37,971 nt of DNA, taken from NCBI GenBank assembly GCA_947460165.1, contig CANHKH010000002.1:1-37971 (forward strand), given 5' to 3'. The stretch is from Comamonadaceae bacterium (lineage in GTDB: Bacteria > Pseudomonadota > Gammaproteobacteria > Burkholderiales > Burkholderiaceae_C). Shown in pieces: positions 3,677 through 31,550 of the stretch (its first letter is position 1; every line of letters starts with the position of its first letter). The translations under genes were made by a program, and so were the position numbers. A model generated the notes under the pieces. That model worked only from the letters and a program-made list of their open reading frames with translations. It searched no databases and was not told where the DNA came from.

Positions 3677-3683
3677 GGCTTGC

Positions 3684-4658: not shown

Positions 4659-4668
4659 GATGAGCTCC

Positions 4669-6104: not shown

Positions 6105-6105
6105 G

Positions 6106-7812
6106 TCAGTAACTTTGCATCGGGTTGTGAACGCCCCAGCAGCGGCGCAACACGCCGCAGATCTCGCCGAGGGTGAGGCGGGCCTTGGCCGCCTCAATGA
6201 ACAGGGGCATGAGGTTGTCGCTGCCGCGCGCGGCCTGCTCGATGCGCTCGAGCACGGCGGCGGCCCGGTCCGCATCGCGCTGCTGGCGCAACTGTGCGAG
6301 CCGCTGGCACTGCGCCTGCTCCAAGCTGTCGTCCACGCGGAAGGTCTCGATGGGATCGGCTTCCCGGCCTTCTTGCGGCAGGTATTTGTTCATCGCGACA
6401 AACACATGCTCGGCGCTTTCCACCTTTTTCTGAAAGGCGTAGCTCGACTCCTCGATCGCCTGCTGCACCCAGCCGCTTTCGTGGGCCGCGATCATGCCGC
6501 CCATCTCATCGATCTGCTTGAGAATGGCCGCTGCACGGTCTTCAATTTCATTGGTCAGCGACTCGACGTAATAGGAGCCACCCAGCGGGTCTATGGTGTT
6601 GGTGATGCCAAATTCATCGACCATCATCTGCTGGGTGCGCAGCGCAATGCGGGCGGCGCGTTCGGTGGGCAAGGCAAAGGCCTCGTCCAGCCCGGCGGTG
6701 AAGATGGCTTGGGCGCCGCCCAGTGCGCCTATGAGCGCGTGCATGGCGATGCGAACAATGTTGTTCTCAGGCTCTTGGCGGGTCAGGGTGGAGCCCAGCG
6801 TGCCGCAATAAATGCGAAACATCGACGAGCGGGGGTCCTTGGGCTGGAAGCGTTCTTGCATGACGCGGGCAAAGAGGCGCCTGGCCGCCCGGAACTTGGC
6901 CACCTCTTCAAACAGGTCGCGGTAGCAGCCCAGGGAATACGACAGGCGCGGCGCGAACTCATCCACATCCAGGCCGCGCTCCAGGGCCGATTCAATGTAA
7001 ACGATGGCATGGGCCAGGGCAAATGCGACTTCCTGCACGGCCGTCGCACCAGCCTCGCGCATGTGCACGCCGGTGATCGACAAGGTGTTCCACTTGGGCA
7101 CATGGTGGAAGCAGTGCTCAATCAAGTCGGTGGTCAAGCGCAGCGAGGGACGCACCGGAAAGATGTAGGTGCCGCGCGCCACATACTCTTTGAGGATGTC
7201 GTTTTGCGTGGTGCCTTGCAGCACCCGCAGGTCTATGCCCCGCTCCTGCGCCATGGCCAGGTAGAAGGCCAAAATGATGGGCGCGGTGGCGTTGATGGTC
7301 ATGGCCACGCTCACGTCCTGCACCGGGATGCCGTCAAACAGGGTGTGCATGTCCTCGATGGAGTCTATGGCCACGCCCACTTTGCCGACCGATCCCTTGG
7401 CCTGCGGCGCGTCGGAGTCATAGCCGATCTGGCTGGGCAGGTCAAAGGCGATGGTCAGGGCCTTTTCGTTGAGGCCCAGCAGGTATTTGAAGCGCTGGTT
7501 GGTCTCCTGTGGCGTGCCAAAGCCCGAATAGGGGCGTATGGTCCACAAGCGGCCCCGGTACATGGTGGGGTAGACGCCGCGGGTGAACGGTGCCTGTCCT
7601 GGAAAGCCCAGATCTTGCTCATAGTCGCGGCCGGCCACATCGGCCGGGGTGTACAGGCGTTTGATCGGGATGTTGGCTTCAGAGATGAATTCGGCCTTGC
7701 GCTCGGGCGATTTCTTGAGCACAGGCGAGAGCGTCTGCTCATGCCAGCGCTTCATCGCCTCGGCCAGGTGGGCGCTGCCCGAGCTGGAGGAAGATGTCGC
7801 TGAATCGCTCAT
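6106..7812 (-). CDS. methylmalonyl-CoA-mutase family large (catalytic) subunit, divergent; substrate uncertain
   Basis: RGRLWTIRPYSGFGTPQETNQRFKYLL...LQGTTQNDILKEYVARGTYIFP...SITGVHMREAGAT...VDEFAPRLSYSLGCYRDLFEEVAKFRAARRLFA...DPLGGSYYVESLTNEIE. ATG at 7812 overlaps the ACAD stop. Confidence 0.92.
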   Translation of the reverse strand: MSDSATSSSSSGSAHLAEAMKRWHEQTLSPVLKKSPERKAEFISEANIPIKRLYTPADVAGRDYEQDLGFPGQAPFTRGVYPTMYRGRLWTIRPYSGFGTPQETNQRFKYLLGLNEKALTIAFDLPSQIGYDSDAPQAKGSVGKVGVAIDSIEDMHTLFDGIPVQDVSVAMTINATAPIILAFYLAMAQERGIDLRVLQGTTQNDILKEYVARGTYIFPVRPSLRLTTDLIEHCFHHVPKWNTLSITGVHMREAGATAVQEVAFALAHAIVYIESALERGLDVDEFAPRLSYSLGCYRDLFEEVAKFRAARRLFARVMQERFQPKDPRSSMFRIYCGTLGSTLTRQEPENNIVRIAMHALIGALGGAQAIFTAGLDEAFALPTERAARIALRTQQMMVDEFGITNTIDPLGGSYYVESLTNEIEDRAAAILKQIDEMGGMIAAHESGWVQQAIEESSYAFQKKVESAEHVFVAMNKYLPQEGREADPIETFRVDDSLEQAQCQRLAQLRQQRDADRAAAVLERIEQAARGSDNLMPLFIEAAKARLTLGEICGVLRRCWGVHNPMQSY

Positions 7813-8984
7813 GCTCCTGCCCTCGTTTTGGAGCTTGACCACTTGTAAATATTGTTGCGCTGCACCGCCGAGGAGCCGCCAATGATGGGCAGCAGCAAGG
7901 CGTCGCGCACATAGCGCTCGGCGTCGAAGTCTTTCACATAGCCGTAGGCGCCGTGTATGGTCTGGCCCTCCAGCGCAATGGTCTTGGCCGCTTCGGTGGC
8001 GAACAGCTTGGCCATGGAGGTCTCGACGCCGCAAGGGATGCGCTCGTTGGCCATCCAAGCTGCGTGGTAGAGCATGAGGCGGGCGCCGTGCAGCTGGGTC
8101 TTCATGTCAGCCAGCTTGTGCTGGATGGACTGGTAGTTCTCTATGGTTTTGCCGAATTGCCGCCTCTGGCGGGCATAGTCCCAGGCGTCGTCGAGCGCTG
8201 CGCGGGCAATGCCCACCGCGATGGCGGCCACCTCGAGCTTTTCAACATCGAGGCCAGAGCCGACGATCATCTTCCAGCCACGGTTCCAGCCCTCCTCGCC
8301 ACCCATCACTTGCTCAAACGGCACCTCGACATTGTCGAAGCTCACATCGGTGGTGGCCGCGCCGTGGGTGCCCAGGGTGTGGATGGGGGTGATGGTGACG
8401 CCAGGGGTGTCCGGCGGGATCATCACCATCGACAGGTTGTTGTAGCGCTCCTCTTCGGGGCCGGTGCGCACCAGGGCGTAAATGCAGTCGGAGATGGCCG
8501 AACCGGTGCAAAAGCGCTTGGCCCCGTTGATGCGCACCTTGCCGCCTGCCACCCGCTCGGCCCGCGTCTTGACGCTGGCCAGGTCGGCGCCGGTGTCGGG
8601 CTCGGTCCAGCCGTAGGAAAAAATCAACGAGCCGTCGACCACCTTGGGCAGCAGCCGGCGTTTTTGCTCCTCGGTCGCGCAGTCAACGATGTTCATGCCG
8701 GCGTAGCAAGCGCCCATGATGTAGGGGATGCCAACGGCCGAGCTGCGCCTAGAGAGCTCCTCGATCACCACCATGGTGGCCAGGATGTCGCGGCCAGCCC
8801 CACCATATTCCTCGGGCACAGTCAGGCCCAGCACGCCCAACTGGGCGAGCTTGTCGAAGACTTCGCGCGGGAAGTGGTTGTCGCGGTCCCAGCGCTGGGC
8901 CAGCGGGCGGGGCATTTCTTTGTCGACAAAGCGCTCGAGCAGGTCGCGCAGCTGTCGAATATTGTCCGGCTCAGTGAAATTCAT
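7809..8984 (-). CDS. acyl-CoA dehydrogenase family protein
   Basis: LGVLGLTVPEEYGGAGRDILATMVVIEELSRRSSAVG...YGWTEPDTGADLASVKTRAER...RQFGKTIENYQSIQHKLADM...IHGAYGYVKDFDAERYVRDALL. Confidence 0.93.
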   Translation of the reverse strand: MNFTEPDNIRQLRDLLERFVDKEMPRPLAQRWDRDNHFPREVFDKLAQLGVLGLTVPEEYGGAGRDILATMVVIEELSRRSSAVGIPYIMGACYAGMNIVDCATEEQKRRLLPKVVDGSLIFSYGWTEPDTGADLASVKTRAERVAGGKVRINGAKRFCTGSAISDCIYALVRTGPEEERYNNLSMVMIPPDTPGVTITPIHTLGTHGAATTDVSFDNVEVPFEQVMGGEEGWNRGWKMIVGSGLDVEKLEVAAIAVGIARAALDDAWDYARQRRQFGKTIENYQSIQHKLADMKTQLHGARLMLYHAAWMANERIPCGVETSMAKLFATEAAKTIALEGQTIHGAYGYVKDFDAERYVRDALLLPIIGGSSAVQRNNIYKWSSSKTRAGA

Positions 8985-9026
8985 CGTTGCCCTTGTGAGT
9001 CGCTGCCCGAAGGTCTGGAGCGGCCA

Positions 9027-9857
9027 TCAGCGGCCGGTGAACACCGGCTTGCGCTTTTCTCGAAAAGCGTGGACCGCTTCTTGGTGGTCGGCGGTGACGT
9101 TGGACATGGCTTCATAGGCGATTGAGGCGTCCATGATGCTGCTGGCCAGTTGCTTGAGACCGATGTTGATGGACAGCTTGGTCCATTTGATGGCCTTGAT
9201 CGCACCGGCGGCCAGGGTGTCGGCAAACTGCGCCACCTGGGCGTCGAGCTCGGTCAGCGGCACCACGTGGTTGATCAAGCCCATGCCAGCGGCATCATGG
9301 GCCGACATCAGCTTGCCTGTCATCAGGTACTCCTTGGCGCGGGCGTAGCCGATCAGCTGGGGCCAGATGACCGCGCCGCCGTCGCCAGCGACCAGGCCGA
9401 CCGAGACATGCGGGTCGCCAATCTTGGCGCTGTCGGCGGCATAGATGATGTCGCAAAACAGCGCAATGGTGGCGCCCAGGCCGGTGGCATGGCCGTTGAG
9501 CTTGGCAATCACCGGCTTTTCGCAGTCCAACAGCGAAAAAACGATTTGCTTGGCCTCACGGGCGGTTTTTTCGAACGACGTGGGCTGGTCAATCATTTTC
9601 TGGAAGAAAGCCACGTCGCCGCCCGAGGAGAACGCCCGGCCGGCGCCGGTGAGCACCACGATGTCTGAATCCGGGTCATTGGAGGCGTCGGTAAAGACGC
9701 GGGCCAGCTCCTCGTGCATGAGCTCGTCGACCGCGTTGAGCGTGGCCGGCCGGTTCATGGTGATCTCAAGAATGCGGCCCCGCCGCGCAAAACTCAGGGT
9801 GTTGTAGGTTTCGAACTGCACGCCGCTTGACTCCAGTGTGTTTTGAGCCTCGATCAT
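9027..9857 (-). CDS. enoyl-CoA hydratase/isomerase (crotonase) family protein
   Basis: ITMNRPATLNAVDELMHEELARVF...GAGRAFSSGGDVAFFQ...GHATGLGATIALFCDIIYAADSAKIGDPHVSVGLVAGDGG...FREKRKPVFTGR. Confidence 0.9.
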   Translation of the reverse strand: MIEAQNTLESSGVQFETYNTLSFARRGRILEITMNRPATLNAVDELMHEELARVFTDASNDPDSDIVVLTGAGRAFSSGGDVAFFQKMIDQPTSFEKTAREAKQIVFSLLDCEKPVIAKLNGHATGLGATIALFCDIIYAADSAKIGDPHVSVGLVAGDGGAVIWPQLIGYARAKEYLMTGKLMSAHDAAGMGLINHVVPLTELDAQVAQFADTLAAGAIKAIKWTKLSINIGLKQLASSIMDASIAYEAMSNVTADHQEAVHAFREKRKPVFTGR

Positions 9858-9888
9858 GGCAAACAAGAGGCAAAGAATCAACAGTCAC

Positions 9889-9902
9889 TGAATGGCCATT
9901 CA
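9889..9902. promoter_or_regulatory. putative TetR operator: perfect 14-bp palindrome TGAATGGCCATTCA
   Basis: Self-reverse-complementary sequence between the divergent tetR and crotonase genes; resembles TGAATG...CATTCA operators of acyl-CoA-responsive TetR regulators. Confidence 0.6.
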
Positions 9903-9948
9903 TTGGGATGAACCCTTAGAATTTCTGCACAAAAACAAGGACCCGAGC

Positions 9949-10599
9949 ATGATCTCCAGCGACAACGAAGCCGTCGACAAGCTCAATGCGCAAGGCCGCA
10001 GCCGCAAACGCTTGACGCGCGAGGAGCGTGCACCCGATGCGCGCGATCAAATCTTTGCTGCCGCGGCCAAGGTGGTGGGCGAGCACGGCTATGCTGCGGC
10101 CTCGATCACCCGCATCACCGAAGAGGCGGGCATGGCCCAAGGCACTTTCTACCTCTACTTTTCGTCGCGCCAGAGCCTGTTCGACGAACTGCTGCCCCAT
10201 GTGGGCAAGGACATGCTGCACTTTGTGGGCACTCGGGTGGCCGGTGCCCAGGACATTTTGGAGATGGAAGAGCGCGGCTTCAGAGCCTTCTTTGAATTTC
10301 TGGGCCCCAACCCGGGTTTTTTTCGCATCCTCAACGAGGCGGAGGTGGCCGCGCCCAAGGCGCATGAGGAGCACTTTAGGCGCACGGTCAGCCACTTTGT
10401 GCAGGCGCTGGAGCTGGCGTTGCAAGCTGGCCAAATCCGCAACTTCATGCGCAGTGAGATCGAAACCCTGGTCTATGTCCTGATGGCGGCGCGCAGCTAT
10501 CTGTACATGCGCTATGTCAAGGGTCAGGCGACCGGTGCGCGATTGCCCGAGGAAGTGATCAAGACCTACATGCGCCTGGTGCGCAGCGGTCTCAATTAG
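9949..10599 (+). CDS. TetR/AcrR family transcriptional regulator
   Basis: RDQIFAAAAKVVGEHGYAAASITRITEEAGMAQGTFYLYFSSRQSLFDELL; canonical TetR HTH. ATG at 9949 preferred because the upstream ATG (9892) lies inside the putative operator. Confidence 0.93.
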   Translation: MISSDNEAVDKLNAQGRSRKRLTREERAPDARDQIFAAAAKVVGEHGYAAASITRITEEAGMAQGTFYLYFSSRQSLFDELLPHVGKDMLHFVGTRVAGAQDILEMEERGFRAFFEFLGPNPGFFRILNEAEVAAPKAHEEHFRRTVSHFVQALELALQAGQIRNFMRSEIETLVYVLMAARSYLYMRYVKGQATGARLPEEVIKTYMRLVRSGLN

Positions 10600-10605
10600 C
10601 TGCCG

Positions 10606-11616
10606 TCAACCGTTCGACAGCGCGCGGGCCAGCACTTGCTGCACCGCGCCTGAGAAATCTTGCTCGCCTTGCAGCAGGGCCTGGCCTATGGCCGCAAGCG
10701 CAGATTCGTCAAGCGCTGCGATGCGCCTCTGCAGCGCTTCACCGGCCATGGCGGCCAGGGTTTTTTGCAAGCGGCGCATGCGCTCTTGCGCCGGTGCGGG
10801 CACACGCGCTGCATGCACGGCATAGACCGCATCGAGCAATTGGGCGGCGCCCGCGCCTGTGCTGGCGGTCGTCGCGATCACCGGCGGCATGGCGGCACTG
10901 CCCAAATGGGCGGCGGCCTGCAATTGGCGGATCAGGCCCTGCGCGCCCGGCAGGTCGGACTTGTTGACCGCATAGACATCGGCCATCTCAAGCACGCCGG
11001 CCTTGATCATTTGCACTTCGTCGCCCATGCCAGGCGCACACACCAAGACCGTCAGTTGCGCCAGGCCACTGACCTCGGTCTCAGACTGACCAACGCCCAC
11101 CGTCTCAACAATGATCAGGTCTTTGCCAGCCGCATCAAGCACATCGACCACCCGCGACGCGGCCGCCGACAAGCCGCCCAGGTGACCGCGGGCGGCCAGG
11201 CTGCGCACAAACACGCCGCTGTCACCGGCCATGGCCAGCATGCGGATGCGGTCGCCCAGCACCGCCCCGCCGGTCAGCGGGCTAGAGGGGTCAACCGCCA
11301 CCACACCGACTTGCAAACCGCGCTGGCGCGCCTCGGTGATGCAGGCGGCAATCAGGGTGGATTTGCCGGCCCCCGGGGCGCCGGTAAAGCCGACCACCAC
11401 TGCCCGGCCCACCCGGGGGTAAATGGCTGCCAGCACCTGGGCCGCATCCTGCGTGTGCTCTTCGACCGCCGTGATGGCGCGGGCCAAAGCAGCGCGCTGG
11501 CCGTCGAGCGCCGCGCTCAGCCAAGCGGGAGCAAGGGCTGGTGGAGGCAAGGGAATGGGTGTGGTCAAAGTGCGGCGGATGTTAACAAGGGGTCCAGATG
11601 AGCCAGCTTGAGCCAC
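10606..11616 (-). CDS. meaB: MeaB/ArgK-type GTPase (acyl-CoA mutase G-protein chaperone)
   Basis: VVGFTGAPGAGKSTLIAACITEARQRGLQVGVVAVDPSSPLTGGAVLGDRIRM...VRSLAARGHLGGLSAAASRVVDVLDAAGKDLIIVETVGVGQSE...NKSDLPGA. Confidence 0.94.
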   Translation of the reverse strand: MAQAGSSGPLVNIRRTLTTPIPLPPPALAPAWLSAALDGQRAALARAITAVEEHTQDAAQVLAAIYPRVGRAVVVGFTGAPGAGKSTLIAACITEARQRGLQVGVVAVDPSSPLTGGAVLGDRIRMLAMAGDSGVFVRSLAARGHLGGLSAAASRVVDVLDAAGKDLIIVETVGVGQSETEVSGLAQLTVLVCAPGMGDEVQMIKAGVLEMADVYAVNKSDLPGAQGLIRQLQAAAHLGSAAMPPVIATTASTGAGAAQLLDAVYAVHAARVPAPAQERMRRLQKTLAAMAGEALQRRIAALDESALAAIGQALLQGEQDFSGAVQQVLARALSNG

Positions 11617-12869: not shown

Positions 12870-14231
12870 ATGTCGCTGCGCACCCTCATCACCCCTTTTG
12901 TCTCTGCGCACCTGTTGTCGCGCGAGCGCTTGCTGCGCCTGCGCGAGCGCGCCGAGGCGCGCCGCGTGGCCAAGGGCTTGCCGCATGTGCTGCTGTACTT
13001 TCACCAGGTGGACGATCCTTACAGCCATCTGGCAGCCCAGGCCTTGCAGGCCTTGGAGCAGCGTTACGCGCTGCGCATTGAGCCGCATTTGGTGGGCCCG
13101 CCCGCCGACGCGGCCGCGCCTGACCGAGCCAGGCTGGTGGCCTACAGCCGGCTGGACGCCCAGCGCCTGGCGCAGGTGCACGGCCTGAACTTTGAAGACC
13201 TTCAGCGTCAGCCGCCAGAGCACGCGGTGACTGCCACCTCTGTGGCCTTGCTCGATGCCATGGCCGATGGCAGTTTCACGGCCATGGCCAGCAGCTTGGG
13301 TGCCGCCCTGTGGTCGCCTGCGGTGCAGCCTGTGCGCCAGGCGCCATCAGGCCAACAGCTGCAGCGGCTGCAGCAGGCGCTGGACCAAGGGCAGCGACTG
13401 CGCGCGCGCCTGGGCCATTACCTGGGCGCCACTTTTTATTACGGCGGCGAGTGGTACTGGGGGGTCGATAGGTTGTACCACCTTGAAAAGCGCCTGCAGG
13501 CCCTGGCCAGCCAAGGCGGGGCGCAGCCGCAGGCCGGACAAAGCCCCACAGCGCTGGCCCAAACGCTGTTGTTCCCGCCTGATGACTGTGCCTTCCCCGC
13601 GCAGCCGCTGGTGGGCGCGCCTGACATTGACTTTTTCTTTTCGCTGCGCAGCCCGTACTCGGCCATTGTGGCGCCCAGGGTGTTTGAGCTGGCGCGCCGC
13701 ACGGGCGCCCGTGTCCACCTGCGCTATGTGTTGCCCATGGTCATGCGGGGCTTGGCGGTGCCCAAAGACAAGCGGCTTTACATCGCGCTCGATGCGGCGC
13801 GTGAGGCGCACGAGCGAGGCGTGCCCTTTGGCCGTTTGAACGACCCGGTGGGCCGGCCCACCGAGCGGGGCCTGAGCCTCATGCCCTGGGCTGAGCGCGC
13901 AGGCAAGGGCCAGGCTTATGTGCTGGCTTTCATGCACGGTGTCTGGGCCCAGGGTGTGGACGCGGGCTCTGACGCGGGCCTGCGCCGCATCGTCGAGCAG
14001 GCCGGGCTGCCGTGGGCACAGGCCCGCGCCGTGCTGCAAGAGGGCAGCAGCGGCGCTGACAGCTGGCGCAGCGTGGCCGAGGCCAACCGCCAAGCGCTGC
14101 TGGCCCTGGGGCTGTGGGGCGTGCCCTCGTTTCGGGTGGGCGATCTGGCCGTGTGGGGCCAAGACCGGCTGGGCATGGTGCAGACTGCGGTGTGCGCTCA
14201 GTCACAGTCTTCCCAGGAGGGCCTCTCATGA
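12870..14231 (+). CDS. tandem DsbA/HCCA-isomerase-like (thioredoxin-fold, GST-kappa-like) protein with two repeated domains
   Basis: First domain VLLYFHQVDDPYSHLAAQALQAL; second domain DIDFFFSLRSPYSAIVAPRVFEL...LWGVPSFRVGDLAVWGQDRLGMV; both lack a CxxC motif. Confidence 0.8.
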   Translation: MSLRTLITPFVSAHLLSRERLLRLRERAEARRVAKGLPHVLLYFHQVDDPYSHLAAQALQALEQRYALRIEPHLVGPPADAAAPDRARLVAYSRLDAQRLAQVHGLNFEDLQRQPPEHAVTATSVALLDAMADGSFTAMASSLGAALWSPAVQPVRQAPSGQQLQRLQQALDQGQRLRARLGHYLGATFYYGGEWYWGVDRLYHLEKRLQALASQGGAQPQAGQSPTALAQTLLFPPDDCAFPAQPLVGAPDIDFFFSLRSPYSAIVAPRVFELARRTGARVHLRYVLPMVMRGLAVPKDKRLYIALDAAREAHERGVPFGRLNDPVGRPTERGLSLMPWAERAGKGQAYVLAFMHGVWAQGVDAGSDAGLRRIVEQAGLPWAQARAVLQEGSSGADSWRSVAEANRQALLALGLWGVPSFRVGDLAVWGQDRLGMVQTAVCAQSQSSQEGLS

Positions 14232-16066
14232 AATGGATGAACCTGTGGTGCTGCAGCCTGGCGTGGCTGGCCTGGATGACGTTGCCGGTGCATGCGCTGC
14301 CCGCTGCGGCTCAAGTCAAGCCAGCCAGCGCTCTGAGCCCAACTGCCGCCAAGCGCCCCAACATCGTGCTCTTGTTGGCCGACGACTGGGGCTTTTCTGA
14401 CGTGGGCGCCTTTGGCGGCGAAATCGCCACCCCCCACCTGGATGCCTTGGCCGCCCGGGGCATGCGCTTTTCTAATTTTCATGTCTCGGCCTCGTGCTCG
14501 CCCACCCGGGCCATGCTGCTGACCGGGGTGGACAACCACCTCAACGGCGTGGGCAACATGCGAGAGACCATGCCTCGCGCCCACACGGGCCGGCCGGGTT
14601 ACCTGGCCGTGCTCAACGAGCGGGTGGTGACGTTTTCCACCTTGCTGCAGGCCAGCGGTTACCGCACCTACGTGACGGGCAAGTGGCATGTGGGCAAGGA
14701 GCCGCACAACCTGCCGCCTCAGCGCGGTTTTGACCGCTCGCTGGTGCAAGGCGACAGCGGCTCTGACAACTGGGAAACCGCGCGCCGCTACCTGGATTTG
14801 ACCGACAAGGTGCACTGGTACGAAGACGGCCGCGAAGCCCAGATGCCCACGGATTACTACTCGTCCACCTACTTCATGGACAAGATGCTGGGCTACCTGC
14901 GCCAAGACCAGGCCAAGCCCCAGCCCTTTTTGGCCTACGTGGCTTTTCAGGCCAACCACATCCCCTTGCAGGCCCCGCCCGCCTTCATTGACAAATACCG
15001 GGGCCGCTACAAGGACGGCTGGAGTGCCCTGCGCCGCGAGCGCCGCGACCGCGCTGCAGCGCTCGGCCTGGTGCCAGCGGGCACGCCCATGGTGGAGATG
15101 GCCAGCACCCGCCACTGGGCCAGCCTGAGCGCTGAGGAGCGCCAGTACGAAGAGCGGCGCATGGAGGTCTACGCCGGCATGGCCGAGGCCATGGACCACG
15201 AGGTCGGCCGCCTGGTGGCCCACCTCAAGCAAAGCGGGCACTACGACAACACGGTGTTTGTGTTTCTTTCAGACAACGGGGCCGAAGCCTCAGACCCCTA
15301 CGCCAAGCTCTCGGGCCGCTTGTGGCTGGACTGGCAGTACAAGCGCGACTTGGCCAGCTTGGGCGCCAAAGGCGCTTACACCGTGATTGGCCCGAGCTGG
15401 GCCAGCGCCGTGGCCTCGCCCTTGTCCACCTACAAGTTTTATTCGGGCGAGGGCGGCATCCGCGTGCCGCTCATCGTGGCCGGTGTGCCGGGTGTTCAGC
15501 CCGGCGCGGTGCACCCGCGCTTTGCGCACGTCAACGACCTGGCGCCCACCTTGCTGGAGTTGGCCGGCCTGCCGCCGCAGACTGGCAGCCACCAAGGCCA
15601 GTCTGTGGAGCCCATGACAGGGCGCAGCCTGCTGCCTGTGCTCACAGGCCGCGCCGACCGCGTGCATGCGCCTGAGGCGGCCATTGGCTATGAACTCTCG
15701 GGCAACGAGGCGCTGTTCCAGGGCGACCTCAAGCTCTTGCGCAATATTGCGCCTGTGGGCGACGGGCAGTGGCGCCTGTATGACATCGTGCGCGACCCCG
15801 GTGAAACGCGCGACCTCGCCGCTGACATGCCCCAGGTTTTTGCCGCCATGCAAAAGGCCTACGCCGACTACGCCCAACGCCACGGCGTGCTGCCCATGCC
15901 CGAGGGCTACGACCCGATCCGGCAGGTGGAGATCAACGCGTTTTTCAATGTGTATGTCCCGCGCTACCGCACGGCTTTTTGGCTGACCATGGGTGTACTG
16001 GTGCTGGTGGGGGCTTGGCTGTGGCGCAGGCGGCGCCTGCGGCGTGTGAGCAGGGCAGTCCCGTGA
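14228..16066 (+). CDS. type I (formylglycine) sulfatase / arylsulfatase with N-terminal signal and C-terminal transmembrane tail
   Basis: RPNIVLLLADDWGFSDVGAFGGEIATPHLDALAARGMRFSNFHVSASCSPTRAMLLTG (CSPTR modification motif)...VTGKWHVGK...FLSDNGAE; C-terminus FWLTMGVLVLVGAWLWRRRRLRR. ATGA overlap with the upstream gene. Confidence 0.94.
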   Translation: MKWMNLWCCSLAWLAWMTLPVHALPAAAQVKPASALSPTAAKRPNIVLLLADDWGFSDVGAFGGEIATPHLDALAARGMRFSNFHVSASCSPTRAMLLTGVDNHLNGVGNMRETMPRAHTGRPGYLAVLNERVVTFSTLLQASGYRTYVTGKWHVGKEPHNLPPQRGFDRSLVQGDSGSDNWETARRYLDLTDKVHWYEDGREAQMPTDYYSSTYFMDKMLGYLRQDQAKPQPFLAYVAFQANHIPLQAPPAFIDKYRGRYKDGWSALRRERRDRAAALGLVPAGTPMVEMASTRHWASLSAEERQYEERRMEVYAGMAEAMDHEVGRLVAHLKQSGHYDNTVFVFLSDNGAEASDPYAKLSGRLWLDWQYKRDLASLGAKGAYTVIGPSWASAVASPLSTYKFYSGEGGIRVPLIVAGVPGVQPGAVHPRFAHVNDLAPTLLELAGLPPQTGSHQGQSVEPMTGRSLLPVLTGRADRVHAPEAAIGYELSGNEALFQGDLKLLRNIAPVGDGQWRLYDIVRDPGETRDLAADMPQVFAAMQKAYADYAQRHGVLPMPEGYDPIRQVEINAFFNVYVPRYRTAFWLTMGVLVLVGAWLWRRRRLRRVSRAVP

Positions 16067-17424
16067 GCACAGACCATGCGTTGAAGGCAGCCTCTGTTTT
16101 GAACAACGCTGCGGGTTCGGTGGACCTGGAGCCACCACTGGCCCAGGCCCTTGCCGTGCAGCCGGCAGGTACTGCCACCTGCGCCTGGCCCAGTGAAGAC
16201 GGTGGCGCCGAACGCCGCCAAGCCGTGAGCCCGGCCAGCCGTCTGGCGCTGCAGCCTGGCGAGCGCCTGGTGTGCCGCAGCCGCGCCACCTTGCTCTCGA
16301 CCATGACGGTGCTGGGGCCGCAAGGCCAGGTCTACTTGCTCACGCATTCGGCGCTGCGGGCGCACCTGGGCCTGGCCACCACGGCGCGCGTGGAACGCAT
16401 ACACCCTACGGGGCTGCACACGCTGCAGCGTTCACCCCGCTTGAAAGGGGGACCCATGTGGCCGGGTGGCATGGCGCTGCACCCCAATGGCAGCTTGATC
16501 GTGGTCTACGGCCGACATGCGCACAGGCTGGACCTGGACTGCCAGCCTTTGGCCGTGCGCCAGTTGCCACAGGAGCAGGCTTACAACGGCTTTGTCACGC
16601 TGACCAACGGCTTGGTGGTCACCAAAAACCTGTCTGAGACGCAAGCGGCCCGGCTCAGCGTGCTGGCCCCCAACACCTTGGCTTCTTTGGGCCCAGACAC
16701 GCTGTGTCCAGAGCCCTCGGTGGCCAGGCTGAGCGCTGTGGGCAACACGGTCTACGTGGTGGGCACGCACAGCGTGATGCGCTTTCACTGGAACGCGGCA
16801 CAGACCCGCCTGGACCTGGACCCCTCTTGGCGTTACTTTTACCTGACGGGCCCCAGCCACAGCTTTGGCTGGGACCTGGTGCTCGCAGCCGGTCACGCCT
16901 GGTTCATGGACAACGGCAAACACCGTTACCGCTTTCAAATGCGCGGGGCGGGCGTGAGCCCAGGGGCCAACCGCTTGCACCGCGTCAGCCTGAGCGATGC
17001 CGCCGACCACCAAAGCGTGCAGGTGAGCGGCCTTCCGCACGGCAGCATCACCAACCCACCCCTGGTGGACGCGCAGCGCCAGCTGGTGCTGGCCTATGAC
17101 TCGGCCAACGCCTGCGTGCAAGCCTTTGCGTTTGCCACCGAATCCGGTCGCACCGAGCTCACACCGCTGTGGCGCAAAGACGGTTTTGGCTGCGCCAGCC
17201 ACATGCTGCTTTACGCTGAAAGCGGCGAAGTGGTGCTCAACGATTGGCGCCGCTGGGGCGAAGAGGTGGTGGTGCTGGACATCCTCACCGGCCAAGAAAA
17301 GGGCAGGGTGCGTGTGGGCGGCTGGAGCCAGGGCGTGGTCTTCCCCAGCCCGGGCCACAACCGCGACCTGTACTGGTGCAGCATGAGCCGCGTGGCGCGG
17401 GTGTCTGTGGAGGCTGCGGCATGA
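16063..17424 (+). CDS. uncharacterised protein, possibly beta-propeller-like
   Basis: GTG start overlaps the sulfatase TGA (GTGA); 453 aa with repeated VxGxxSVMRF / GMALHPNGSLIVVYGRHAHRLDLD-type segments; no recognised family. Confidence 0.6.
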   Translation: MSTDHALKAASVLNNAAGSVDLEPPLAQALAVQPAGTATCAWPSEDGGAERRQAVSPASRLALQPGERLVCRSRATLLSTMTVLGPQGQVYLLTHSALRAHLGLATTARVERIHPTGLHTLQRSPRLKGGPMWPGGMALHPNGSLIVVYGRHAHRLDLDCQPLAVRQLPQEQAYNGFVTLTNGLVVTKNLSETQAARLSVLAPNTLASLGPDTLCPEPSVARLSAVGNTVYVVGTHSVMRFHWNAAQTRLDLDPSWRYFYLTGPSHSFGWDLVLAAGHAWFMDNGKHRYRFQMRGAGVSPGANRLHRVSLSDAADHQSVQVSGLPHGSITNPPLVDAQRQLVLAYDSANACVQAFAFATESGRTELTPLWRKDGFGCASHMLLYAESGEVVLNDWRRWGEEVVVLDILTGQEKGRVRVGGWSQGVVFPSPGHNRDLYWCSMSRVARVSVEAAA

Positions 17425-17486
17425 ACGGTTATTTGGCCCGTTCAGGCCTGGCCTTGTTGGCTTTCGCACGGTCGGTGCCACGCCTT

Positions 17487-17600
17487 GCCCCCACCCCAGC
17501 CCTCCCCCAGAGGGGGAGGGAGCAATTCGCAGAGACTGCTCGCGCTTTCCTGACCCCGACTTCACTCCCTCCCCCTCTGGGGGAGGGCTGGGGTGGGGGC
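17487..17600. repeat. MITE/REP-like element with 36-bp perfect terminal inverted repeats
   Basis: Left arm GCCCCCACCCCAGCCCTCCCCCAGAGGGGGAGGGAG (17487-17522) is the exact reverse complement of the right arm (17565-17600), with a 42-bp spacer. Confidence 0.9.
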
Positions 17601-17743
17601 ACGCGCAGCACAGGCCTGACTTCAACACGCTCAAGAAATCTTTCAAGAACAAGCCGAAGGGGTGGATCGCGCCTCACAAGCCCCCACCAGCTCGCTAATT
17701 TGCCCCCAAGTCACCCCCGCAGCTCTCACTCTAAAGACTCCCC

Positions 17744-18832
17744 ATGACCCTTCGCAAACCTTGGCTTCTTGGCCTCTTGGTGCTCCTCCTCGCCGCTGCG
17801 GCCCTGTACAACTGGCGGGCAGAGATCTCCTTGCAAGTGGCCCGCAAAATTGCGGCCAAGCACCTGTCCTCCACCGGCCTGGAAGGCTTGGCCGATGGCT
17901 TGCATGTGGGGCTGTGCGGGGCGGGCTCGCCCTTTCCTGACGAGTTGCGCGCCGGCCCCTGCACCTTGGTGGTGGCTGGGCAGCGTCTTTTGATATTCGA
18001 TGCCGGCAACGGCGCCAGCCGCAACATTGGCCGCATGGGCTTTACCCATGGGCGGGTGGAGGCGGTGTTTCTCACCCACTTTCACTCGGACCACATTGAC
18101 GGCTTGGGCGAGCTGATGCTGCAGCGCTGGGTGCAAGGCGGCCACCGGGCGCCTGTGCCAGTGCATGGTCCGGCAGGCGTGCAAGAGGTGGTGGCGGGGC
18201 TGATGCAAACCTACCGCCAAGACCGGGGCTACCGCGTGGCCCACCATGGCGATGCGTCGGTGCCAGCCTCGGGCTTTGGCGGCCAAGCCCGGCCTTTTGC
18301 CGTGCCCAGTGATGCCGCCGTCAGCGTCTACAAAGAGGGCGACTTGGAGGTCAGCGCTTTTGCGGTTGACCACTCGCCTGCTCACCCAGCGGTGGGCTAC
18401 CGCATCAATTACAAGGGCCGGGTGGTGGTGCTCAGTGGCGACACCAAGCGCTCGGCGGCCGTGCAGCGCGAAGCGCAAGGCGCCGACTTGCTGGTGCACG
18501 AGGCGCTGTCCACCAAGCTGGTGAACCTGATGGAAGAAGTCTCCAGTCAAAACGGCAGGCCTGGCCTGGCCAAGGTCTTGGGCGACATCCACGACTACCA
18601 TGCCACGCCCGAAGAGGCGGCGCAAACCGCACGCGACGCCAAAGTGGGCTATTTGCTGCTTAACCACATCGTGCCCACCTTGCCGCCGCTGCCCGGCCTA
18701 GAAAAAACCTTTTTGGGTGACGCTCCGCGCATTTACAGCGGGCCTTTGCGCGTGGGCCGTGACGGTGACTTTCTGTCCCTGCCCGCAGGCAGCCGTGAGA
18801 TCACGCACAGCTCCCGGCTGAGGTTCCCTTGA
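17744..18832 (+). CDS. MBL-fold metallo-hydrolase (RNase Z/arylsulfatase-like) with N-terminal membrane anchor
   Basis: MTLRKPWLLGLLVLLLAAAALYNW anchor; VEAVFLTHFHSDHIDGLGEL (HxHxDH); VVVLSGDTKRS; LLLNHIVP. Confidence 0.88.
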   Translation: MTLRKPWLLGLLVLLLAAAALYNWRAEISLQVARKIAAKHLSSTGLEGLADGLHVGLCGAGSPFPDELRAGPCTLVVAGQRLLIFDAGNGASRNIGRMGFTHGRVEAVFLTHFHSDHIDGLGELMLQRWVQGGHRAPVPVHGPAGVQEVVAGLMQTYRQDRGYRVAHHGDASVPASGFGGQARPFAVPSDAAVSVYKEGDLEVSAFAVDHSPAHPAVGYRINYKGRVVVLSGDTKRSAAVQREAQGADLLVHEALSTKLVNLMEEVSSQNGRPGLAKVLGDIHDYHATPEEAAQTARDAKVGYLLLNHIVPTLPPLPGLEKTFLGDAPRIYSGPLRVGRDGDFLSLPAGSREITHSSRLRFP

Positions 18833-18834
18833 GC

Positions 18835-19782
18835 ATGCCCATGAGCGAGTTCAGCCTGCCCGCCTTGAGCGCGCCCGTGCTGCGCACACCCGAGCATTGC
18901 TTTGCGGCCGTGCGTGACTTTCCCTATGCGCCCCATTACTTGGAGCTCACTGGTGGTGGCACGCCGCTGCGCGTGGCCTACATTGACGAAGGTCCGCGCG
19001 ATGCCCCCCTGGTGCTGCTCATGCACGGCGAGCCCACTTGGTCTTACCTTTACCGCACCATGATCCCGCCACTGCTGGCGGCGGGCCTGCGGGTGGTGGC
19101 GCCCGATTTGGTGGGCTTTGGCCGCTCCGACAAACCCAGCGCCCAGCGCGATTACAGCTACGCCCACCATGTGGCCTGGATGAACCGCTGGCTGGCCCAG
19201 GCCCAGTTGGAGCGCATCACGCTGTTTTGCCAAGACTGGGGCTCGCTCATTGGCTTGCGCATGGCTTGCGCGCAGCCGCAGCGCTTTGAGCGCATTGCGC
19301 TGGCCAATGGCGGCTTGCCCACGGGCACAGCCCCCGTGCCGCGTGCCTTCAAGCTGTGGCGCGCTTTTGCCAGTTACAGCCCTTGGTTCCCCATAGGCCG
19401 CATTGTGCGAAGCGGCTGCGCCCAAGGCCTGAGCGACGAGGCCGTTGCCGCTTACAACGCGCCCTTTCCCACGGCTGCCCACCGCCGTGGCGCCAGGGCT
19501 TTTCCGCGCTTGGTGCCCATTGCGCCAAACGATCTTGAACGCCCGGCCAACGAGGCCGCTTGGGGCCAGTTGCGCGCCTGGGACAAGCCCTTTGTCACCT
19601 TGTTCAGCTCGCGCGACCCCATCACCCGGGGCGGCGAGCGGCTGTTTCAGGCCCAGGTGCCCGGCGCTCAGGGCCAGGCCCACCAAACCATTCGGGGCGC
19701 GGGCCATTTTTTGCAGGAAGACCGCGGCCCCGAGCTGGCCCAGGCCCTGATTGCCTTTGTCCACGCGAAAGCCGCCCCATGA
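18835..19782 (+). CDS. alpha/beta hydrolase, haloalkane-dehalogenase-like (DhlA-type)
   Basis: LVLLMHGEPTWSYLYRTMIPPLLAAGLRVVAPDLVGFGRSDKP...ITLFCQDWGSLIGLRMA (nucleophile motif QDWG)...GAGHFLQED. TTG at 18829 is an alternative start. Confidence 0.82.
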   Translation: MPMSEFSLPALSAPVLRTPEHCFAAVRDFPYAPHYLELTGGGTPLRVAYIDEGPRDAPLVLLMHGEPTWSYLYRTMIPPLLAAGLRVVAPDLVGFGRSDKPSAQRDYSYAHHVAWMNRWLAQAQLERITLFCQDWGSLIGLRMACAQPQRFERIALANGGLPTGTAPVPRAFKLWRAFASYSPWFPIGRIVRSGCAQGLSDEAVAAYNAPFPTAAHRRGARAFPRLVPIAPNDLERPANEAAWGQLRAWDKPFVTLFSSRDPITRGGERLFQAQVPGAQGQAHQTIRGAGHFLQEDRGPELAQALIAFVHAKAAP

Positions 19783-20690
19783 GCTCGCCCAGCTGGCAAG
19801 CCCGCGCCATCAGCTTGGCACTGCGCCTGACCTTCAAGCGCCAACTCGCGGCTGCGCAAGGCATAGACCAGGTCAGGCAGCTCATGGGCCGCAACATGAG
19901 CCGCACACCCCGCGAGATGGAGATTTCCCCCTGGCCCCATGCGGGCGGCGGTCAAGGCGAGCGCCTGCGCTGCCTGCGCGCGCCTGCGCGTGCCCGTATG
20001 ATGTACGTGCACGGCGGCGGCTTTGTGGCCGGCAGCCCGCTCAGCCACCGGTCCATCACGGTGGCACTGGCGCGGCTGGGCTTTGAGGTCTGGGTGCCCG
20101 ACTACCGGCTGGCGCCCGAGCACCCGTTTCCGCAAGGGCTGGAGCAGCTCTTGGCCCTCTACGGCGAGGCCAGCGAAGGCCTGAGCGCTGACCAGTACAT
20201 GCTGCTGGCAGGCGACTCGGCCGGCGGTGGGCTGGTGCTGTCTTTGATGCTCATGCTCAAGGACCAGGGCAGGGCGCTGCCCGCTGCTGGTGCCTTGCTT
20301 TCCCCCTTGGTCGACCTCACCTTGTCAGGCCGCTCCATTGACCGCAACGCCCGCCGCTGCGCCATGTTCACCCGCGCTCCCTTGGAGCGTGGCATGGCGC
20401 TCTACCTGGGCGGCCAAGACGCCCGTTTGCCCCTGGCCTCGCCGGTGCGTGCCAAGCTCCAAGGCTTGCCGCCGCTCCTCATCCATGTGGGCCAAAACGA
20501 AACCTTGCTCGACGACGCCGTGGCCCTGTGCGAGGCCTGCCAGCGCGATGGGGTTAAGGCGCAGCTTCGCATTTGGCCTGCCGTCCCCCATGTGTGGCAG
20601 CTGTTTGGGCGCTACATCCCCGAGGCGCGGCAGTCGCTGCGTGAAGTGGCTGCTTTTCTTCATCAACACACCCTCAAGACGCCTGTATGA
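19779..20690 (+). CDS. alpha/beta hydrolase, hormone-sensitive-lipase-like esterase
   Basis: MMYVHGGGFVAGSPLSHRS...VWVPDYRLAPEHPFPQGLEQ...LLAGDSAGGGLVLSLML (GDSAGG)...HVWQLF. Confidence 0.92.
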   Translation: MSSPSWQARAISLALRLTFKRQLAAAQGIDQVRQLMGRNMSRTPREMEISPWPHAGGGQGERLRCLRAPARARMMYVHGGGFVAGSPLSHRSITVALARLGFEVWVPDYRLAPEHPFPQGLEQLLALYGEASEGLSADQYMLLAGDSAGGGLVLSLMLMLKDQGRALPAAGALLSPLVDLTLSGRSIDRNARRCAMFTRAPLERGMALYLGGQDARLPLASPVRAKLQGLPPLLIHVGQNETLLDDAVALCEACQRDGVKAQLRIWPAVPHVWQLFGRYIPEARQSLREVAAFLHQHTLKTPV

Positions 20691-22174
20691 GCTCTTCAAC
20701 TTTTCAGCCCGACCACCAAGTGACCATCGTGGGCGCCGGCTTTGGCGGCCTGTGCATGGCCTTGCAGCTGGCGCGCGCGGGCGAGTCCAACTTTGTGCTG
20801 CTGGAGCAGGCCCAAGAGGTGGGCGGCACCTGGCGCGACAACCAGTACCCGGGTTGCGCTTGTGACGTGCCATCGCACCTCTACTCCTTTTCCTTTGAGC
20901 CCCACACCTCGTGGAGCCGCATGTACGCCAGCCACGACGAAATTCAGGCCTACTTGGTGGCTTGCAGCCACAAACACGGCCTGCGCGAGAAAATTTGGCT
21001 GGGCACGGCGCTCACCGAAGCCCGCTTTGACGAGACGCACAACGTCTGGCACATCACCACCAGCACAGGCCGGCAGTTCAGCACACGGGTGCTGGTCACG
21101 GCTTTGGGCGCTTTGTCTCGGCCGGCCATTCCGCAGTTGCCGGGCATAGAGCGCTTTGCGGGCCGGGTGTTTCACTCGGCGCGCTGGGACCACGGCTTGG
21201 ACTTGCAGGGCCTGCGCGTGGCCGTCATTGGCACAGGCGCGAGTGCCATTCAGTTTGTGCCGCACCTGCAAGCCCGTGCTCAGCAGGTGCATGTGTTCCA
21301 GCGCACGCCAGCCTGGGTGCTGCCCAAGGGCGACCGGCCCTTCACACCCACCGAGCTGGACCGCATGCAACGAATCCCCGGCTACAGGCGCTTGTTCCGC
21401 TGGCTTATTTACTGGCGCCAAGAGTTCACCGGCCTGGGATTTTTGGTGGCGCCCTCGCTCATGGCCCGCGCCCAAAGCCTGGCCACACGGTTTTTGAAAA
21501 AACACGTCAAAGACCCGGCCTTGCGCGAGCGCCTCTTGCCGCGCTACACCATGGGCTGCAAGCGCGTGCTGCTGTCCAACGACTACTACCCCGCCATGGC
21601 CCAGCCCAATGTGCAGGTGCACGGCATGGACCAGCTCCAAGGTGTGACCGAGCGCGGCGTGCAGGTGGGCGGCCAAGAGCTTGCGGTGGACGCCATCATT
21701 TACGGCACGGGTTTCAGGGCCACCGACTTGCTCACGCCGCTGCGACTGCTGGGGCGCGGCGGGGTGGACCTCAACACCGTGTGGGCCGAGCAGGGTCTGG
21801 GCGCGCACAAGGGCGTGTGCGTGGCGGGTTTTCCCAATTTGTTCATGCTGCTCGGCCCCAACACCGGCCTGGGCCACAACTCGGCCATCTTCATGATCGA
21901 GTCGCAGGTGCAGTACATCCTCAAGGGCTTGGCACGCATGCGCGCGCGCGGCGCCACGGCGGTGGAAGTCAAGCCCCAGGCCCAAGAGGCTTTTGCCCAA
22001 GAGATGGACAAGCGCACCCATGGCACGGTGTGGAAAAGCGGCTGCAAAAGCTGGTACCTGGACGCCAAAGGCCGCAACGTCACCCTGTGGCCTGGCTTTA
22101 CCTTTTCGTATTGGTGGCGCTTGCTCAGCTTCAAGGCCAGTGAACACCTGTGGGGCCGCACGGCGCGGCCATGA
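20687..22174 (+). CDS. flavin-containing monooxygenase, Baeyer-Villiger type
   Basis: VTIVGAGFGGLCMALQLA (GxGxxG), FAGRVFHSARW (BVMO fingerprint FxGxxxHxxxW), VAVIGTGASAIQ, YGTGF. Confidence 0.93.
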   Translation: MSSSTFQPDHQVTIVGAGFGGLCMALQLARAGESNFVLLEQAQEVGGTWRDNQYPGCACDVPSHLYSFSFEPHTSWSRMYASHDEIQAYLVACSHKHGLREKIWLGTALTEARFDETHNVWHITTSTGRQFSTRVLVTALGALSRPAIPQLPGIERFAGRVFHSARWDHGLDLQGLRVAVIGTGASAIQFVPHLQARAQQVHVFQRTPAWVLPKGDRPFTPTELDRMQRIPGYRRLFRWLIYWRQEFTGLGFLVAPSLMARAQSLATRFLKKHVKDPALRERLLPRYTMGCKRVLLSNDYYPAMAQPNVQVHGMDQLQGVTERGVQVGGQELAVDAIIYGTGFRATDLLTPLRLLGRGGVDLNTVWAEQGLGAHKGVCVAGFPNLFMLLGPNTGLGHNSAIFMIESQVQYILKGLARMRARGATAVEVKPQAQEAFAQEMDKRTHGTVWKSGCKSWYLDAKGRNVTLWPGFTFSYWWRLLSFKASEHLWGRTARP

Positions 22175-23292
22175 ACCAGCCCTACACCTTTTACGGCTGG
22201 CACGCCTCCTACTTTGCGGGCAAGGCGCGCACCTACCTGCATTACAAGCAAGTGCCCCTGGCCGAGCCCACGCTGACACTGTGGACGCTCATGGGCCCCG
22301 TCAAGCGCCACACCGGCGCGGCTGCCATGCCTGCGCTGCGCACGCCCACGGGGCAGTGGTTGTCGGACAGCAGCGAGATCATTGACCACATGGAAGCGGC
22401 CTTTCCCGAGCGGCCCGTGGTGCCCCAGACGCCTGTGCAGCGCTGCGTGTCTTACCTGCTGGAAGCTTGGTTTGACGAGTGGTGGATTCCCATGGCCATG
22501 CACTCGCGCTGGAGCTACCCCGAGAATTACCAAGATCTCTTCAGGCGCGACGTGGGCAACCAGCTCATGCCCGGCTTTCCCCGCCTGGCCAAAAACATGG
22601 CAGTCGACCACGTGGCCCGCATGCTGCGCGGCATGTGCCCGGCCGTCGGCATACGCCCCGAGCAGCTGGGCTGGCTCAACAGCTGGAGCGAGCATGCGCT
22701 GGACTTGCTGCACACCCACTTGCAGGCCCAGCCCTATCTGTTGGGAAGCCGCCCCAGCCTGGCCGACTTTGCCCTGGCTGGGCCCATGTACGGCCACCTG
22801 GCCCGCGATCCCTGGCCTGCCCGCGAATGGGTGGCCCCTAGGCCCGCTCTGCGGCAATGGACAGACCGCATGGCCCAGCCGCCTGCGCACGCAGCGCAGG
22901 GCGAGCTCACGCCGGACGATGACATTCCCACCACGCTGGTGCCCCTCTTGCAGCTGGTGCTCAGTGAATTCACGCCTTTTGTGCAAGGCATACAGGCCCA
23001 AGTGCAGGCCCTGTCTGCCACCTGGCCCCCAGGCAAAACCCTGCCTCGCGGGCTGGCCGACGTGTGCGTGAACACCCCACAAGGTCGCTTTTGCCGCGCC
23101 GCCTTGCCCTACACCTTGTGGATGGTGCAGCGTCTGCAAAGCGTGTTTGCCAGCCTGCCACAGGCCGAGCAAGCCCGCGTGCGCCTGGCTTTTGCCAGCT
23201 GGGGCAGTGATGCGCTGCTGACCATGCCTGTGCCCAAGCTGGAGCGGCGGGCGCTGCGGGTGGCGCTGGCCATGGACCAGCCACAGGCCTGA
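22171..23292 (+). CDS. glutathione S-transferase-like protein
   Basis: YTFYGWHASYFAGKARTYLHYKQVPLAEPTLT...MPALRTPTGQWLSDSSEIIDHMEAAFPERPVVPQ...LLGSRPSLADFALAGPMYGHL; GST N- and C-domain pattern. ATGA overlap. Confidence 0.78.
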   Translation: MNQPYTFYGWHASYFAGKARTYLHYKQVPLAEPTLTLWTLMGPVKRHTGAAAMPALRTPTGQWLSDSSEIIDHMEAAFPERPVVPQTPVQRCVSYLLEAWFDEWWIPMAMHSRWSYPENYQDLFRRDVGNQLMPGFPRLAKNMAVDHVARMLRGMCPAVGIRPEQLGWLNSWSEHALDLLHTHLQAQPYLLGSRPSLADFALAGPMYGHLARDPWPAREWVAPRPALRQWTDRMAQPPAHAAQGELTPDDDIPTTLVPLLQLVLSEFTPFVQGIQAQVQALSATWPPGKTLPRGLADVCVNTPQGRFCRAALPYTLWMVQRLQSVFASLPQAEQARVRLAFASWGSDALLTMPVPKLERRALRVALAMDQPQA

Positions 23293-28042: not shown

Positions 28043-29020
28043 ATGTCAAAGTTTTGCATTTTGTCGAACAAAGCCCTGACCTTGGCCCTGACCCTGGCCG
28101 CAGGATCGGTGTGGGCCCAGGCCTACCCCAACAAAGCCGTCAAATTGGTGGTGCCCTTTGCACCCGGCGGCACCACGGACATTGTGGCGCGCGTGATTGC
28201 TGAGCCTTTGGGTCGGGCCCTGGGCCAAAGTGTGGTGGTGGAAAACCGCGCCGGTGGTGGCGGTTTGGTGGGGGCGGCCGAGACGGTCAAGTCCGCGCCC
28301 GACGGCTACTCGCTGGGCATGGCCACGGTGTCGACCACGGCTTCTAACCCGGCCATCAACCCCAAAACGCCCTACAACCCGCTGACGGACTTCACGCCCA
28401 TCATCAACATTGCGGCCACCCCCAACATCATTGCGGTGCACCCCAGCTTTCCGGCCAAAAACTACCCAGAGTTCTTGGCCGAGCTCAAGCGCAACCCGGG
28501 CAAGTACTCTTACTCTTCGTCGGGCACGGGCGGCATTGGTCACCTGCAGACCGAGCTCTTCAAAAACCTCACCCGCACCTTCATCACCCACATTCCTTAC
28601 CGGGGTGCGGGTCCGGCCTTGAACGACACGGTGGCCGGTCAGGTGCAGATTATTTTTGACAACCTGCCTTCTGCGCTGCCCTTTATCCAGCAGGGCAGGC
28701 TGGTGCCCATTGTGGTGGCTGCGCCCCAGCGCTTGACGGTGTTGCCCAATGTGCCCACCTTCAAAGAAGTGGGTCTGGAGCCGGTGAACCGCATGGCTTA
28801 TTACGGCATCTTGGGCCCCAAGGGCTTGTCCAAGGAGGTGGTGGACAAAATCAGCGCGGGCACCCGCAAAGCGCTTGAAGACCCGGCCGTGCGCAAGCGC
28901 ATTGAGGACACGGGCTCGCTCATCGTGGCCAACACGCCCGAGCAGTTTGTGGCCCAAATCAAGGCCGAGTTCGAGGTCTACAAAGGCGTGGTGGAAAGCG
29001 CCAAGCTCAAGCTGGACTGA
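28043..29020 (+). CDS. Bug-family (tripartite tricarboxylate transporter) substrate-binding protein
   Basis: ALTLALTLAAGSVWAQAYPNKAVKLVVPFAPGGTTDIVARVIAEPLGRALGQSVVVENRAGGGGLVGAAETVKSAPDGYSLG. Confidence 0.94.
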   Translation: MSKFCILSNKALTLALTLAAGSVWAQAYPNKAVKLVVPFAPGGTTDIVARVIAEPLGRALGQSVVVENRAGGGGLVGAAETVKSAPDGYSLGMATVSTTASNPAINPKTPYNPLTDFTPIINIAATPNIIAVHPSFPAKNYPEFLAELKRNPGKYSYSSSGTGGIGHLQTELFKNLTRTFITHIPYRGAGPALNDTVAGQVQIIFDNLPSALPFIQQGRLVPIVVAAPQRLTVLPNVPTFKEVGLEPVNRMAYYGILGPKGLSKEVVDKISAGTRKALEDPAVRKRIEDTGSLIVANTPEQFVAQIKAEFEVYKGVVESAKLKLD

Positions 29021-31288: not shown

Positions 31289-31550
31289 GAGGCTTGTACT
31301 CCGGTGTAGCGGCTGGGCAATGGCTGAGACGACTCACGCGCTCAGCCGCGAAGTTTTATTCACATGCCAGCTTAAAAGCGGGTACGCGCGCTTTGTGCAG
31401 GTTGGCGTATAGGCCCACTTGGGCAGGCTGATTTGTCGGTCATGTTCATGCGTGTTTGGCGCTCAGGTGCTGAGGTCTTTGCCCTTGCTTTTTTGCATCT
31501 ATGGGCGCCGTTAGATCAGGGCGATCATGGTGAAATAAGTGCCACGCGAT

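Follow-up and report, generated by a model that had tools for sequence, protein, structure and literature searches.

A subterminal oxidation route has been proposed for Thalassolituus oleivorans in which an alcohol dehydrogenase, a Baeyer–Villiger monooxygenase (BVMO) and an esterase convert an alcohol, via ketone and ester, to an acid (PMC6304351). In Mycobacterium tuberculosis, the mymA locus encodes a monooxygenase (Rv3083), an esterase (Rv3084, lipR) and fadD13 (Rv3089); the locus is assigned to cell-wall lipid synthesis, and neither a sulfatase nor a dehalogenase is named there (PMC10272862). HLD-I haloalkane dehalogenases carry a catalytic pentad of Asp-His-Asp plus two tryptophans (PMC6920932), and several have been solved (6f9o, 4mj3, 5esr, 2xt0, 1b6g). 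Chlorosulfolipids, first described from freshwater chrysophytes, are long-chain lipids of algae that are both polychlorinated and sulfated; some are suspected of being shellfish toxins (PMC13413282).

The locus described here lies in a 37,971-nucleotide stretch of DNA from a Comamonadaceae bacterium (GCA_947460165.1, contig CANHKH010000002.1; hereafter the window). It consists of eight genes, A to H, whose protein families are all known with the exception of that of C, but whose conserved combination appears to be new. With the T. oleivorans route it shares the ketone–ester–acid steps (genes F and G, plus an SDR in many related loci), but here these are combined with sulfatases, the sulfatase-maturing formylglycine-generating enzyme (FGE) and a haloalkane dehalogenase, and the block showed no alkane hydroxylase. 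The likeness to mymA, judged by gene content rather than sequence, lies in a flavin monooxygenase adjoining an esterase, with FadD in the same locus. Protein E, a predicted dehalogenase, has the pentad of the solved HLD-I enzymes and is 52% identical to 6f9o but, unlike them, sits within a sulfatase/BVMO operon. Sulfatase B resembles the formylglycine arylsulfatases (1hdh) in its CxPxR motif and in the presence of an FGE gene, both in relatives and elsewhere in its own genome, but differs in its constant partnership with the uncharacterised propeller protein C. An earlier note on this DNA knew of no described pathway with such a combination, and none was found in the open-licence literature, from which subscription journals are mostly missing; a search there for haloalkane dehalogenase, Baeyer–Villiger monooxygenase, sulfatase and gene cluster together returned no papers.

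Organisation of the locus

The features of the block are as follows.

12870..14231, + strand: A, DsbA/HCCA-isomerase-like (thioredoxin-fold) protein of 453 aa; PF01323, E 3.4e-20, residues 253-440
14228..16066, + strand: B, type I (formylglycine) sulfatase; PF00884, E 2.8e-61
16063..17424, + strand: C, predicted beta-propeller protein, cytosolic-looking; AF2 model with pLDDT 86.5, pTM 0.86
17486..17601, no strand: dispersed inverted repeat; arms 17486-17522 and 17565-17601, 37 nt, 100% complementary, 42-nt loop
17744..18832, + strand: D, metallo-beta-lactamase (MBL)-fold hydrolase; PF12706/PF00753, HFHSDH motif, N-terminal hydrophobic segment
18829..19782, + strand: E, haloalkane dehalogenase, HLD-I by sequence; PRK00870/NF002043, pentad
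19779..20690, + strand: F, hormone-sensitive-lipase (HSL)-family esterase; PF07859, E 6.9e-47; HGGG, GDSAG
20687..22174, + strand: G, predicted type I BVMO; motifs FAGRVFHSARWD and GGTWRDNQYPGCACD
22171..23292, + strand: H, glutathione S-transferase (GST)-like protein of 373 aa at the right edge of the block; GST_N/GST_C

All eight open reading frames are complete, lie on the + strand, have no internal stops and together span 12870-23292. The earlier note had described them as overlapping by 4 nt within each of two halves, and both the coordinates and all six junctions proved correct: A/B, E/F, F/G and G/H overlap at ATGA, B/C at GTGA and D/E at TTGA. Pfam/NCBIfam matches uphold the families it had named (DSBA, Sulfatase, Lactamase_B, PRK00870, Abhydrolase_3/HSL, FMO-like, GST_N/GST_C). 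All eight proteins are 85–96% identical to those of a sister species, in which they form an A-B-C and a D-H block, and in all eight genes third codon positions change 1.8–4.6 times as often as first and 3–14 times as often as second positions. This dominance of third-position change argues that the genes are under purifying selection and encode maintained proteins. Synteny with the sister species stops at H.

The perfect 37-nt inverted repeat lies in the 319 nt that separate C from D. It is one of a dispersed family for which BLAST finds 141 matches genome-wide, counting both strands; a further copy of this GC-rich repeat lies within the window at 31539-31593. In the nearest relative, the sister species (locus L001, genome G619), the contig carrying A-B-C breaks off within this repeat at the corresponding position, whilst the D-H block opens a different contig that starts with the repeat's other end. 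The shared position places the insertion before the two species diverged, and the repeat also explains the break in the sister-species assembly. Since C ends in ATGA and relatives have an SDR, BVMO or GST gene at this point, loss of a gene at the repeat was suspected, but translation of 17421-17744 revealed no remnant of any of the three and the idea was set aside. The peptide encoded downstream of the repeat matches nothing and is not conserved in the sister species.

Sulfatase B, hydrolase D and dehalogenase E

The catalytic motifs of both the sulfatase and the dehalogenase are intact. B has the sulfatase modification motif (C/S-x-P-x-R) as CSPTR at residue 90; its nearest solved structure is the arylsulfatase 1hdh (E 2.3e-125) and it also matches steryl-sulfatase, weakly. 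Signal-like N-terminal and C-terminal membrane segments lead us to infer that B is periplasmic and membrane anchored. The best match for D among solved chains is 8gyg, labelled an arylsulfatase (E 1.4e-20), followed by RNase Z, which is also its best NCBIfam match, below cut-off. D thus resembles arylsulfatase and RNase Z alike, and is possibly a third sulfatase. Candidates for sulfatase maturation (PF03781) are found on four contigs of the same genome (C127, C49, C483 and C197). The copy on C197, an FGE, adjoins a second sulfatase, and this closeness supports genuine sulfatase maturation.

E scores 440.6 bits against NF002043 (cut-off 265) and has the full HLD-I pentad, D136, W137, W177, D263 and H293, invariant in 16 aligned sequences. 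By sequence, E is thus a predicted HLD-I haloalkane dehalogenase. Given the promiscuity of haloalkane dehalogenases, the substrate of E may be something other than the halide proposed below. HLD-I enzymes have been well studied in vitro; to our knowledge, their natural role has seldom been tied to a gene neighbourhood, and a search of the open-licence literature for the natural context of HLD-I found nothing useful. The conserved operon, which ties HLD-I to sulfatases and a BVMO in common aquatic bacteria, offers such a context in directly testable form. Another HLD-I-like gene, 56% identical to E, occurs in genome G207 (L128:9757-12149), where it lies away from the sulfatase locus and has as neighbours a DUF1254/DUF1214 gene and genes resembling those of acyl-CoA ligases.

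Esterase F and BVMO G

F carries both motifs of the HSL family, the HGGG oxyanion motif and the GDSAG nucleophile elbow. G has the type I BVMO fingerprint FxGxxxHxxxW[P/D] (FAGRVFHSARWD at residue 157), situated between its two Rossmann motifs, GAGFGG at 16 and GTGASA at 182. Its best solved match is phenylacetone monooxygenase (E 1.3e-72), steroid and cyclohexanone monooxygenases are also among its solved matches, and its best NCBIfam BVMO match, pentalenolactone D synthase, is far below cut-off. G can therefore be assigned as a type I BVMO, predicted to oxygenate ketones to esters. The sequence motifs of G and of F, the gene it adjoins, support the earlier suggestion that the two form a ketone-to-ester-to-acid module.

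Relatives of G (51–52%) adjoin an HSL esterase and an SDR at two loci (L124, L125), and at L122 a BVMO relative lies beside beta-oxidation-type genes (neighbours named by eye). Within the A–H type of locus, F and G are rare: F is found in 1 of 80 loci, and G itself occurs there only in the window genome and the sister species. In one relative (L022), A-B-C-D-E-H are contiguous, which indicates that F-G is a cassette placed between E and H, in the window as in the sister species. At L057, in the same kind of locus, a different BVMO (27% to G) adjoins an HSL esterase (44% to F), so that a BVMO–esterase pair has probably joined the locus more than once. Given the rarity of F and G, cleavage by BVMO and esterase may be a local addition, although another family of BVMOs, BVMO8, recurs in 24 loci; this too shows FxGxxxHxxxWP on inspection.

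Proteins A, C and H

The earlier note had called A a tandem DsbA/HCCA-isomerase-like protein. The family match stands, but A is a single 453-aa open reading frame with PF01323 in its C-terminal half only; DPYS- and SPYS-type motifs, one in each half, suggest a second DsbA/HCCA-like domain in the N-terminal half. A has no visible signal peptide and so is probably cytosolic, and probably glutathione linked. H has both N- and C-terminal GST domains (PF13409/PF13417 and PF13410/PF00043) above cut-off.

C has no match in Pfam, NCBIfam or PDB sequences. A model of C built from 32 aligned sequences is nearly all-beta, with varied propellers such as Rv3035 and BamB as its best Foldseek matches (8–14% identity), in agreement with its earlier description as propeller-like. 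A role as a lactonase was considered and rejected, given this lack of sequence matches and the variety of the propellers matched.

Conservation in relatives

Searching GTDB species genomes with C yielded 80 loci, mostly from metagenome-assembled genomes of Comamonadaceae and other Burkholderiales, with further examples in Roseateles toxinivorans, Limnohabitans and one Pseudomonas. Record titles (Baikal, Loclat and other lake names) indicate that the bacteria concerned are apparently mostly freshwater. The earlier note had proposed neighbourhood conservation as a check, and the gene set does recur across these 80 Burkholderiales-type loci. Wherever the upstream annotation could be read (75 of 75 loci), the annotated gene immediately preceding C is B, on the same strand. 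Twenty-five loci of at least 20 kb were treated as complete, and among these, in percentages that are not independent of shared ancestry, B is present in 24 (96%), A in 22 (88%), D in 21 (84%), a TetR regulator (TetR4) in 20 (80%), E and sulfatase 2 in 18 each (72%), an SDR (SDR7) in 15 (60%), FGE and an outer-membrane protein (OMP13) in 10 each (40%), FadD in eight (32%) and BVMO8 in seven (28%). The MBL hydrolase and the haloalkane dehalogenase lie downstream in most complete loci, and GST/HCCA-like proteins are recurrent members, as had been supposed. Relatives add a second sulfatase, FGE, TetR, SDR, other BVMOs and FadD to the set; several have A-B-C without E.

The gene right after C is SDR7 in 24 loci, BVMO8 in 22, D in 20 (six on the other strand) and GST in five; no SDR is present in the C–D gap of the window. 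One relative (L022) has an outer-membrane protein gene and A-B-C-D-E-H in a single row and another (L080) has B-C-D-E-H, with H directly after E in both. In the reverse search, six of 300 family genomes contained a homologue of E of at least 64% identity, and in five of the six C lay 1.2–1.9 kb away (Fisher p 1.8e-9 for the coincidence of E and C in the 300 genomes, a value that ignores shared ancestry). The sixth (genome G111, L118) has A-B-D-E contiguous and lacks the propeller gene, the sole such case seen. A class-wide search with C across 321 genomes yielded, apart from the genome of the window itself, a single partial relative. Outside the Burkholderiales, Pseudomonas sp. N040 (L024) has C followed by a cluster-type GST, without a sulfatase.

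The strong co-conservation of the members across related loci bears out the view that they form one functional gene series. As for its two halves, a gap with a repeat does separate C from D, but comparison with relatives shows both halves to belong to one conserved operon, which the dispersed repeat interrupts.

Further components in the same genome

Several genes found at the locus in relatives are present elsewhere in the window's genome. On contig C197, FadD (69%) and the second sulfatase (72%) are accompanied by the start of FGE (58%), in an order also found upstream of the locus in relatives. Contig C501 (L151) has a TetR4 homologue (57%) whose neighbours, named by eye, encode an aldehyde dehydrogenase and a fatty-acid-hydroxylase-like protein, and contig C8 encodes a PF10118 protein, 48% to that of the cluster. 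Completeness of the genome bin is 82% and contamination 5.8%, a level at which C197 could be foreign; these three contigs nevertheless likely belong to the window species.

Proposed pathway and substrate

By eye, signal or membrane segments are present in B, D, sulfatase 2 and FGE and absent from A, C, E, F, G and H, a distribution that suggests periplasmic desulfation followed by cytosolic steps. We propose that A–H is a catabolic operon for feeding on a sulfated, halogenated aliphatic (lipid-like) natural product, a reading to which we give an even chance. Sulfatase B, helped by sulfatase 2 and FGE (encoded elsewhere) and possibly by D, would remove sulfate esters in the periplasm, exposing alcohols. 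After uptake, E would replace an alkyl halide with a hydroxyl group. Secondary alcohols would be oxidised to ketones by the SDR found next to C in many relatives, G would turn the ketone into an ester and F would split this into acid and alcohol, whereupon FadD would activate the acid for beta-oxidation. The glutathione-linked A and H would deal with reactive intermediates, for instance epoxides or remaining halides. The observations behind this scheme are the layout of the operon, its conservation, the intact catalytic motifs and, in the same assembly, the segment with FadD, sulfatase 2 and FGE; the order of steps, the compartments, the substrate and what A, C, D and H do are as we infer them. 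Taken together, the subterminal alcohol–ketone–ester–acid route (PMC6304351), the sulfatases, HLD-I and FadD make a sulfated, halogenated aliphatic chain the most economical substrate. The recurrence of FadD and the BVMO relative beside beta-oxidation-type genes at L122 also point to an aliphatic chain, but FadD is commonly encoded in bacteria and is present in only a third of the complete loci.

Other explanations can be weighed against this. That A-B-C and D-H are unrelated operons, neighbours by chance with a repeat between them, would fit the 319-nt gap and its dispersed repeat, but in many relatives D lies right after C or one gene later, and with C-D-E-H contiguous at L022 and L080 the conserved order already contradicts an idea that we consider extremely improbable. 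More serious, if still somewhat unlikely, is a substrate that is sulfated but not halogenated, such as a secondary alkyl sulfate or sulfolipid: sulfatases would yield an alcohol and the SDR a ketone, the BVMO and esterase would cut the chain, and the HLD-family protein would serve as a promiscuous hydrolase for an epoxide or ester. In favour of this, no member of the locus is more constant than sulfatase B, several relatives have A-B-C but lack E, and the subterminal route requires no halide (PMC6304351). E, however, is well above its family cut-off and retains all five HLD-I residues, including both halide-binding tryptophans, in every aligned sequence.

The substrate might instead be a sulfated cyclic compound (a steroid, sterol or terpenoid sulfate) with the BVMO opening a ring ketone, which would accord with the steroid and cyclohexanone monooxygenases among the solved matches of G, with pentalenolactone D synthase as its best, though far sub-threshold, NCBIfam match and with the weak steryl-sulfatase match of B. 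Against this, the substrate ketone of phenylacetone monooxygenase, the best solved match, lies outside the ring, no recognisable steroid ring-degradation gene was seen among the recurrent neighbour families examined, and the dehalogenase and FadD would be left unexplained; we regard it as quite improbable. The earlier note had presumed a cyclic ketone, but nothing found indicates a ring, and FadD and the L122 context favour the aliphatic chain of our proposal.

Among known compounds, the chlorosulfolipids of freshwater chrysophytes fit such a chain best, by chemistry and habitat only. The locus could then be the first recognised bacterial pathway for chlorosulfolipid breakdown, in which sulfatases would take the sulfates, HLD-I and the glutathione enzymes the chlorines, SDR, BVMO and esterase would cut at a secondary oxygen, and FadD would lead into beta-oxidation. 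We think this specific identification unlikely; were it true, the locus would represent the bacterial sink so far missing for one class of chlorinated lipids from algae. A search of the open-licence literature for bacterial chlorosulfolipid degradation returned no papers.

Flanking genes

Upstream of A, on the - strand (5676-11616), lies a B12-dependent acyl-CoA mutase gene set, named from sequence as a large subunit, a separate B12-binding subunit, an acyl-CoA dehydrogenase, an enoyl-CoA hydratase and a MeaB-like GTPase, with a TetR-like gene at 9892-10599 on the + strand. Among solved chains, the large subunit comes closest to the 2-hydroxyisobutyryl-CoA mutase 4r3u (E 7e-155), yet its active-site stretch reads TIRPYSGFG (Tyr). 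These genes were considered as part of the pathway and rejected: they are syntenic in the sister species but do not recur in other loci. Beside the mutase set, 2447-5643 holds a CaiB-type CoA transferase and two tripartite-tricarboxylate (Bug) receptor-like genes, and an additional Bug-like gene is found at 28043-29020.
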